From Deltaproteobacteria bacterium (lineage in GTDB: Bacteria; Desulfobacterota; Binatia; HRBIN30; CADEER01): DNA of 64,000 nt. The stretch is from assembly GCA_029262455.1 (NCBI GenBank), contig JAJCZJ010000005.1, positions 1 through 64,000 on the forward strand. Reading direction: 5' to 3'. Positions 58,136-60,395 of this stretch are shown here, in pieces; positions within the stretch are counted from its first letter, which is position 1, and every line of letters starts with the position of its first letter. Position numbers and translations under genes: made by a program. The notes under the pieces were generated by a model. It saw nothing but the letters and a program-made list of their open reading frames with translations. It was not told where the DNA came from and did no database searches.

Positions 58136-59935
58136 ATGCCAGAGACACGATCGCAGCCCGCCTCGGAGCTGTACCCGACGCGTTTACACAGCGCCAAAGC
58201 CTCGGTCGCCGAACTGCTCAAACTCGAAGAGCGGATCAGCAACCTGCGACTCGCCACATTCATCTTCGGCGGCGTCGTGGCGTGGCTGATCTGGGGGTGG
58301 GGCCTGATTTCGACCTGGTCTATCGCCCTCCCAATCGCCATCTTTGTCGCACTCATCGTCCGACACGGGCGCACCATCTCGCAACGTGAACGCCAGCAGA
58401 GGATCGTGGCCTTCTACGAGCACGGCATGGCTAGAATCGAGGCGCGCTGGACCGACTTCGGCACCACAGGAGATCGCTTCGTCGACCCCGGACATCCTTA
58501 CACTTCCGACCTCGATGTTTTCGGCCACGGCTCCCTGTTCCAGTTGTTGTGCACCGCGCGCACCGCAATCGGCCAAACCACTCTCGCCGACTGGTTGCAG
58601 GGTCCTGCACCTCCCCATGAGGTCCGCGCTCGCCAAGCCGCCGTCGATGAGATCATGTATGACGTCGATCGGCGCGAGGCACTTGCGCTCGTCGGTGACG
58701 AAGTCGCACCGGATATCGATCCAACCCACCTCGTCAAATGGGCGACCGGCCCAGATCGATCCACTCCCCATGTCTTGCGCTGGGTCTGTGTCGGCCTGGT
58801 GCTGACCAGCGCTCTGAGCTTTGTCGCCGTCCGCCTCGGGCTAGTCCCGATCGCCGTCTTTCTCGCAGCTGCAGCGTTGCAGACCGCCTTTGGTCGTTCG
58901 CAGCAATCGATCGTAAAGAGCGTTCAACGATCACTAGGGCTACCGTCGGCGGAGCTCGCCGCCCTGGCGAGGCTTCTCGAACAGATCGAGGACAGCAGCT
59001 TCCGTTCACCAAAACTCGTCGCGTTGCAGAAGTCGCTCGCCACCGACGGACAACCCGCATCGAGCCGCATCGCCAAGCTCCAGCGACTTATCGAACTACT
59101 CGATGCGCGGCGCAATCAAATGTTCGCCGCCATCGCACCGCTGCTGCTCTGGGGTACTCAATTCAGCCTCGCCATCGAGGCATGGCGCCAAAACAACGGC
59201 CCCAACGTGCCTCAGTGGCTCGACGCCGTAGGCGAGTACGAAAGTCTATGTGCGCTCGCCGCGTTCACCTACGAACAGACCGAGACGAACTTTCCGACCC
59301 TGGGAGACGGCCACGCGCACTTCGACGCCAAGGGCCTCCGGCATCCGCTCATGGCCATGGATCAGTGCGTCGCCAACGACGTTCTGCTGAACACCGACAA
59401 CGCCCTTCTCGTCATCAGCGGTTCGAACATGTCCGGCAAGAGCACCCTGCTGCGCACCATCGGTACGAACGCCGTGCTGGCACAAATGGGGGCGCCGGCG
59501 TGCGCCAAAACCCTCACCCTTTCAGGCCTCCAGATCGGCACTTCCATGCGCACGCAAGACTCGCTGCTCGACGGCACTTCTCGCTTCTACGCAGAGATCA
59601 AACGTCTCAAGCAAATCGTCGATCTGGTCGACAACGATCTTCCACTCCTGTTTTTGCTCGACGAGGTTCTCCACGGCACCAATTCCCACGATCGTCGTAT
59701 CGGTGCCGAGGCCATCGTCACGGCCCTGGTCGAGCAGCAAGCCATCGGTCTGATTACGACTCACGATTTGACCTTGACCCAAGTGGCGGACAACCTCGGG
59801 CCCTTGGCGCGCAACGTCCATTTCGCCGATCATCTCGTCGACGGTGAGATGCACTTCGACTACACGATGCACGACGGCCCAGTGCAACGTAGCAACGCGC
59901 TCGGGCTCATGCGGGCCATCGGGCTCAAAGTATGA
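58136..59935 (+). CDS. membrane-anchored MutS-like ATPase
   Basis: A 599-residue protein with four hydrophobic segments (two near residues 40-75, two near 220-250) and a C-terminal MutS ATPase domain: Walker A SGSNMSGKSTLLRT, Walker B LLFLLDEVLHGTNSHDR and the TTHDLTLTQ His switch. The mismatch-recognition and connector domains of MutS are missing, so it is not a mismatch-repair sensor. Such membrane MutS-like proteins occur in several phyla without known function. The ATG follows the GNAT stop by eight bases. Confidence 0.87.
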   Translation: MPETRSQPASELYPTRLHSAKASVAELLKLEERISNLRLATFIFGGVVAWLIWGWGLISTWSIALPIAIFVALIVRHGRTISQRERQQRIVAFYEHGMARIEARWTDFGTTGDRFVDPGHPYTSDLDVFGHGSLFQLLCTARTAIGQTTLADWLQGPAPPHEVRARQAAVDEIMYDVDRREALALVGDEVAPDIDPTHLVKWATGPDRSTPHVLRWVCVGLVLTSALSFVAVRLGLVPIAVFLAAAALQTAFGRSQQSIVKSVQRSLGLPSAELAALARLLEQIEDSSFRSPKLVALQKSLATDGQPASSRIAKLQRLIELLDARRNQMFAAIAPLLLWGTQFSLAIEAWRQNNGPNVPQWLDAVGEYESLCALAAFTYEQTETNFPTLGDGHAHFDAKGLRHPLMAMDQCVANDVLLNTDNALLVISGSNMSGKSTLLRTIGTNAVLAQMGAPACAKTLTLSGLQIGTSMRTQDSLLDGTSRFYAEIKRLKQIVDLVDNDLPLLFLLDEVLHGTNSHDRRIGAEAIVTALVEQQAIGLITTHDLTLTQVADNLGPLARNVHFADHLVDGEMHFDYTMHDGPVQRSNALGLMRAIGLKV

Positions 59936-59981: not shown

Positions 59982-60395
59982 ATGAGCAAGGAATTAGAAG
60001 AGGGACTCGATCTACAACTGGATTTCGACAAGTTGGCCAAGGTAGCGGCCAACGCTCCCGACGTACTGCCGGTCGCGGTTCAGCATATCGACACCAAAGA
60101 GGTCATCCTCGTCGCCTACGCCAACCAGCTCGCGTTGGAGACGGCGATCGCTACCAAGACCGCGGTCTTCTGGAGCACCTCGCGCAACGAACTTTGGGAA
60201 AAGGGCAAGACGTCTGGGGAGATGTTCGACTTGCATGAGATTCGCGTCAACTGCGAGCAAAACTCGCTGCTGTACATCGTACGGCCGCGACGCGGCGACA
60301 TCTGCCACACCAAGAACCAAAAGGGCGAACCGAGGAACTGTTACTACCGTCGCCTCGTCATCGAGAGCGGCAAGCTCGAAAACCTAGACCCGTAG
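59982..60395 (+). CDS. HisI-family (phosphoribosyl-AMP cyclohydrolase-like) protein with altered metal ligands
   Basis: The 137-residue protein matches HisI: AYANQLALETAIATK, FWSTSRNELWEKGKTSGE, then three zinc cysteines C91, C108 and C120 (NCEQN, ICHTK, NCYYR). The DCDxD motif that binds magnesium and water in histidine-pathway HisI is NCEQN here (N90, E92, N94). That changes all three Asp. The protein may still be a cyclohydrolase or may act on a different purine-like substrate. No other his gene is near. The ATG is 46 bases after the MutS-like gene. Confidence 0.87.
   Translation: MSKELEEGLDLQLDFDKLAKVAANAPDVLPVAVQHIDTKEVILVAYANQLALETAIATKTAVFWSTSRNELWEKGKTSGEMFDLHEIRVNCEQNSLLYIVRPRRGDICHTKNQKGEPRNCYYRRLVIESGKLENLDP

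Follow-up and report, generated by a model that had tools for sequence, protein, structure and literature searches.

NCEQN in place of DCDxD marks an overlooked variant of the histidine biosynthesis protein HisI

The closest described relatives of the protein considered here are the PR-AMP cyclohydrolases (PRA-CH), among which the plant enzyme HISN2 (MtHISN2) is described in some detail (PMC8102479). There, three Cys hold the catalytic zinc, an Asp triad forms what is likely the Mg site in vivo, His143 acts as general base, and the stretches S100-R-S102 and W107-TKGETS113 contact the substrate. The same paper cites D'Ordine et al. for the universal conservation of the Asp triad and, again citing other work, describes the Asp-bound Mg2+ of PR-AMP cyclohydrolase as essential. 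The cyclohydrolase step is elsewhere described as zinc dependent (PMC10242683). HisI paralogues are also reported from a zinc-starvation (Zur) context, where those described retain the zinc ligands (Haas et al. 2009, PMC2770081). A search of the open-licence PMC literature found no description of an NCEQN or Asp-less HisI.

The window, i.e. the whole 64,000-nucleotide stretch of DNA that was analysed, includes such a gene at positions 59982-60395 (+), reading from an ATG start to a stop and encoding a HisI-like protein of 137 aa. An in-frame GTG at 59844 is listed as a longer start but the proteins of relatives begin at the ATG (MSKELEEG...). The protein matches the PRA-CH profile PF01502 with 82.8 bits (cut-off 27), which places it in the superfamily. 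Its match to the NCBIfam HisI equivalog PRK00051 reaches 91.8 bits for a cut-off of 126, so that annotation with the current equivalog model can leave a gap at this point of histidine synthesis. All 80 members of our NCEQN alignment match PRK00051, the bit score being given for the window protein only; one further locus (L063), whose sequence includes unknown residues, was left out of that alignment. Because of this score and of its altered Asp triad, the protein was not classed with the canonical HisI equivalogs.

Alignment with 1ZPS and MtHISN2 places the Asp triad of DCDxD at N90, E92 and N94, and the zinc Cys at C91, C108 and C120. Thus Asp is replaced by Asn at two of the three sites and by Glu at one, the middle carboxylate being retained. 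The preliminary description, made from the letters of the window, had recognized a HisI-like protein with NCEQN for DCDxD, three conserved zinc Cys and three altered Asp, and the PF01502 match and this alignment confirm each point; the catalytic His is kept as well. It had also placed the gene far from other his genes. Indeed, no other his gene was found within the window, where the gene is directly adjacent to a MutS-domain gene and to a GST gene. The former, directly upstream at 58136-59935 (+), encodes a 599-aa MutS domain V protein with a sub-threshold match to MutS domain III.

The conservation of these residues was assessed over 148 NCEQN rows, which represent 146 distinct sequences since two rows are genes that were reached twice. 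The motif itself, N90-C91-E92-Q93-N94 (60249..60263 (+)), is invariant at N90, C91, Q93 and N94 (148/148), and E92 is present in 147 of the 148 rows, the remaining one carrying D. NC(E/D)QN is therefore found in 146 distinct sequences from several phyla (145 with E and 1 with D), which rules out chance or sequencing error as its source, and every member has altered ligands at the second metal site. The zinc site and its surroundings are equally constant: C108-H109-T110 (60303..60311 (+)) includes the second zinc Cys and the counterpart of the general-base His143 of MtHISN2 (C108 and H109 148/148), and C120-Y121-Y122-R123 (60339..60350 (+)) includes the third zinc Cys (C120, Y122 and R123 148/148). 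The counterpart of the phosphate-binding SRS stretch S100-S102 of MtHISN2 is S65-T66-S67-R68 (60174..60185 (+); S65 148/148, S67 147/148), and that of WTKGETS is W72-x-K74-G75-K76-T77-S78-G79 (60195..60218 (+)), with W72, K74, G75 and S78 in 148/148. With zinc, His and substrate residues invariant in this way, the possibility of a pseudoenzyme was rejected.

The NCEQN proteins also differ from their DCDxD relatives in charge. Position 76, the Glu of WTKGETS, is K in 86, A in 23 and E in 21 of the 148 NCEQN rows, and E in 54 of the 92 DCDxD rows. The basic stretch R101-P102-R103-R104 (60282..60293 (+)) is typical of the NCEQN clade (R101 137/148, R103 109/148, R104 112/148), and position 111 is K in 108 and R in 23 of the 148 rows; R101, R103, R104 and K111 are usual in NCEQN rows but not in DCDxD rows. 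A five-residue insert at 114-118 (60321..60335 (+)) ends in an invariant R118 (148/148) and is a gap in all 92 DCDxD rows. Over the segment that starts with the motif and ends just beyond the third Cys, NCEQN proteins carry a net charge (K+R minus D+E) of +5.3 (sd 1.5, n=108), compared with -1.5 (sd 2.1, n=92) for DCDxD proteins, the latter class being defined by the motif itself. Every fetched protein belonged to one of the three classes NCEQN, DCDxD and DDDQD.

An AlphaFold2 model built with the 80 NCEQN sequences has a mean pLDDT of 90.8 and a pTM of 0.81, with lower confidence for the insert and loop at residues 101-120 (block means of 79). The only strong PDB matches of this model, as judged by Foldseek and by VIA-align (Z 13.6-14.0, the next entry having 4.4), are HisI and HisIE entries. 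1ZPS, 7BGM/7BGN and 6J22/6J2L head both comparisons, and the predicted model thus has the beta-grasp fold of HisI.

NCEQN also marks a clade, as the preliminary description had suggested that a HisI tree might reveal. In a quick maximum likelihood tree of 99 of the 202 sequences, calculated from 87 columns after removal of those of the motif and the insert, a branch with an SH-aLRT of 99 separates 55 NCEQN rows from 42 DCDxD and 2 DDDQD rows; the inner order of this tree is weak. It splits the NCEQN rows from the window's class but two acquisitions within that class were not retained as an explanation, since a single clade was not rejected by the AU test (p 0.57). According to the titles of the records, NCEQN genes occur in Kiritimatiellae, Lentisphaerae, Verrucomicrobia, Chloroflexi/Dehalococcoidia, Planctomycetota, Gemmatimonadetes, Chitinivibrionales and Ca. 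Euphemobacter MAGs, among which single records may be binning errors.

The window's genome (7.34 Mb in 127 contigs, with a stated completeness of 100%) has a single PF01502 match, the window gene, although this type of search may miss genes, a control genome named Bacillus subtilis having given no match. The same genome carries hisD, hisB (IGPD domain), hisH, hisA and hisF on one contig and hisG on another. Between hisA and hisF lies an open frame of 178 aa without a Pfam match (L113, 10567-11103 (-)), which may be non-coding. As to copy number, the window gene is therefore the only PRA-CH found in its genome, which is one half of what the preliminary description had named as speaking against its own reading, complementation of a hisI mutant being the other.

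A similar picture emerges from the relatives. The type carried by each genome was first assigned from PF01502 bits, after which all NCEQN matches in the two genome samples concerned (17 and 56) and the best 30 high scorers of each search were checked in sequence. Among 58 related genomes, 53 have a PF01502 match; in 17 of them the score lies between 77 and 85 bits and in 36 between 111 and 123 bits, and no genome combines the two ranges; one genome (G047) carries two matches in the high, canonical range. All 17 low scorers proved to be NCEQN and the best 30 of the 36 high scorers DCDxD. In two families (f10 and f11), some genera have the NCEQN type and others the DCDxD type. In the phylum of genome G096, 136 of 145 sampled genomes have a match, with 56 low and 81 high scorers; in sequence, the 56 low scorers are 55 NCEQN and one NCDQN, and a single genome (G128) belongs to both sets. 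Finally, for 50 of the 80 loci found with the NCEQN search, the 50 source genomes were examined, and 49 of them have one PRA-CH, the exception being G091. The 80 loci are biased towards the motif, an NCEQN peptide being among the search patterns, but the 17 and 56 genomes are free of this bias; the samples of 58, 50 and 145 genomes partly overlap.

In both exceptions, the second copy is of the third type, DDDQD, in which the first zinc Cys has become Asp. These genes, at 5487-5918 of L206 (G128) and 5198-5641 of L208 (G091), occur beside an NCEQN gene in the genome and their product is a candidate HisI that would have lost a zinc ligand. In L206, three CobW-family genes lie near the DDDQD gene, as in zinc-starvation clusters described by Haas et al. 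A separate oddity concerns two canonical genes (L100 in G039 and L105 in G037), whose frames are 246 and 231 aa instead of the usual ~126.

Where the canonical gene is present in the window's class, it adjoins hisG (30 of 30 fetched loci, the best 30 of the 36). We compared this position in 17 NCEQN and 9 chosen DCDxD loci, LpxD being named by Pfam and unseen in one locus of each kind (L222 and L095). In 8 of the 9 canonical loci, lpxD lies in the opposite direction on the far side of hisI, with 427-691 bp from the lpxD match to hisG. In 16 of the 17 NCEQN genomes, lpxD adjoins hisG with no hisI, only 2-405 bp separating them, and a further PRA-CH was not detected anywhere in these genomes. 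The simplest account is that the canonical hisI was lost after, or together with, the gain of an NCEQN gene elsewhere.

HisG as well as HisA and HisF are present in all 17 NCEQN genomes of this class. In the wider collection, 19 of the 77 NCEQN loci with room for it have hisF in the same orientation, ending no more than 300 bp upstream, and 15 of 76 have trpE starting no more than 600 bp downstream; both genes, which were named by Pfam, are found in 13. A further 40 NCEQN genes with short flanks have hisF in 11 cases, and some other his gene occurs within the fetched flanks of 28 of the 80 loci. No hisF lies just upstream in 58 of the 80 loci, and the window gene is among these isolated copies. 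The genomic link to histidine synthesis is therefore provided by the sole copy in genomes with his genes and by the hisF neighbours, though the window gene itself is not adjacent to a his gene.

We also looked for a conserved gene of the HisE kind in the hisF-NCEQN neighbourhoods; of the neighbours that could be named, those that recurred were hisF, trpE and a GATase gene. Of 32 genomes that together represent both HisI types, 31, among them that of the window, had no HisE (TIGR03188) above its cut-off, so that this gap in the pathway as searched is shared by the two types. PF01503 gave only weak matches in these genomes (at most 37 bits), mostly to frames of at least 260 aa, the long ones presumably being MazG. 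HisE likewise went undetected in 8 of 9 genomes with DCDxD only, and a link between NCEQN and a missing HisE was therefore rejected.

The Chloroflexota (the phylum of genome G071) depart from this pattern. A match in the NCEQN score range is present in nine of 151 genomes, of which eight carry a DCDxD gene as well, whole in six and partial in two (G390 and G342); the NCEQN sequence was confirmed in all eight. No his gene was found, at the threshold used, in the stretches fetched around the NCEQN gene of these eight genomes, and an A_deaminase-family gene occurs within the stretch in six (L194-L199). In L196 it ends ~20 bp from the NCEQN gene on the opposite strand. Given the double carriage, the lack of his context and this neighbour, the NCEQN protein need not be the main HisI there, and a paralogue is possible in these eight genomes. 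Other Chloroflexota loci (L016, L069, L076 and L077) come from genomes with NCEQN alone.

All the genomic evidence, with the exception of the Chloroflexota double carriers, points to a HisI-like role, and this function is strongly suggested. Since it is the sole PRA-CH of a genome with his genes, belongs to a type that, among the relatives, excludes the canonical hisI and keeps the zinc, His and substrate residues, the window gene very probably encodes the PR-AMP cyclohydrolase step. The preliminary description had seen in it a paralogue of a canonical hisI, perhaps a subfamily with a new substrate or a different metal. The subfamily is real, but neither the sole PRA-CH, the accompanying his genes nor the hisF-adjacent orthologues support a new substrate. 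A neofunctionalized enzyme opening another purine-like ring, with something else serving histidine synthesis, would be in keeping with the altered charge of the pocket, in particular the change of Glu to Lys in the WTKGETS stretch, and with the eight Chloroflexota genomes, six having an A_deaminase-family gene nearby. It is nevertheless improbable in view of the mutual exclusion in the 53 matched relatives, the empty hisI slot, the hisF and trpE neighbours, and a genome whose his pathway is otherwise present (hisE not being found); as a description of the window gene, a paralogue was rejected on the strength of its sole copy, the exclusion and the slot. It is more improbable still, indeed barely credible, that the gene is a zinc-starvation spare of the Zur regulon. 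Such HisI paralogues do exist (PMC2770081) but the window gene is the only copy, has MutS-domain and GST genes as neighbours and encodes all the zinc ligands, and the DDDQD protein near the CobW genes of G128 would suit this role better.

A different question is how the altered site would work. It is possible, though less likely than not, that the same reaction is performed with N90, E92 and N94 still binding a divalent ion (Mg, Mn, Ca or another), more weakly or differently, the basic loop serving only substrate affinity. Asn can serve as a metal ligand, a carboxylate persists in the middle (E in 147 of the 148 rows, D in the other) and the entire five-residue motif is invariant, as expected of a binding site. 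However, two of three carboxylates are gone in every member, and the surroundings have changed from net negative to net positive, which is unfavourable to a cation. We consider it likely, on sequence and genomic grounds, that the NCEQN clade is a PR-AMP cyclohydrolase which replaces the canonical DCDxD enzyme and in which the protein supplies, in part or in whole, the charge of the Mg. Zinc would be held by Cys91 of one subunit together with Cys108 and Cys120, the active site being built by two chains, and the zinc-bound water, activated by His109 as base, would attack the adenine ring of PR-AMP at C6, in the manner of HisI. Arg118, Arg101, Arg103, Arg104 and Lys111 would offer the N1-phosphoribosyl group some or all of the positive charge otherwise offered by the Asp-bound Mg2+, and N90, E92 and N94 would be a hydrogen-bonding remnant of the metal site. 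That Arg and Lys supply the charge is probable; whether the former Mg site can do without any divalent metal is a point on which we lean neither way. The kept carboxylate and the invariant motif speak for some role of N90, E92 and N94, be it as metal ligands or as hydrogen-bonding partners.

The NCEQN type is thus a real and clearly marked variant of a known enzyme, one that has been overlooked. As a natural clade spanning several phyla, with two of the three Mg carboxylates lost and apparently replacing the canonical enzyme, it makes the role of the metal testable by comparison and raises the question of whether the charge of a protein can take the place of Mg2+.

In many ways the window protein resembles HisI of Methanothermobacter thermautotrophicus (1ZPS), with an identity of ~33% and, for the predicted model, an rmsd of 2.2 over 107 residues (Z 13.7). 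The two share the three zinc Cys, the catalytic His and the SxS and WxKGxxS substrate stretches. Where 1ZPS has Asp85, Asp87 and Asp89, the window protein has Asn, Glu and Asn; it also carries the five-residue Arg insert between the second and third zinc Cys and is more basic around the active site. The domain and zinc site are likewise those of plant HISN2 (7BGM/7BGN) and of Shigella HisIE (6J2L), and the residues that contact AMP in HISN2 are kept except for its Glu111 and Arg101. In contrast to both of these proteins, which have DCDxD and a fused HisE domain, the window protein is a lone domain from a genome in which no HisE was found. The Zur-linked HisI paralogues, as described by Haas et al. 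(2009, PMC2770081), belong to the same PRA-CH family but coexist with another HisI, whereas the window gene stands alone.
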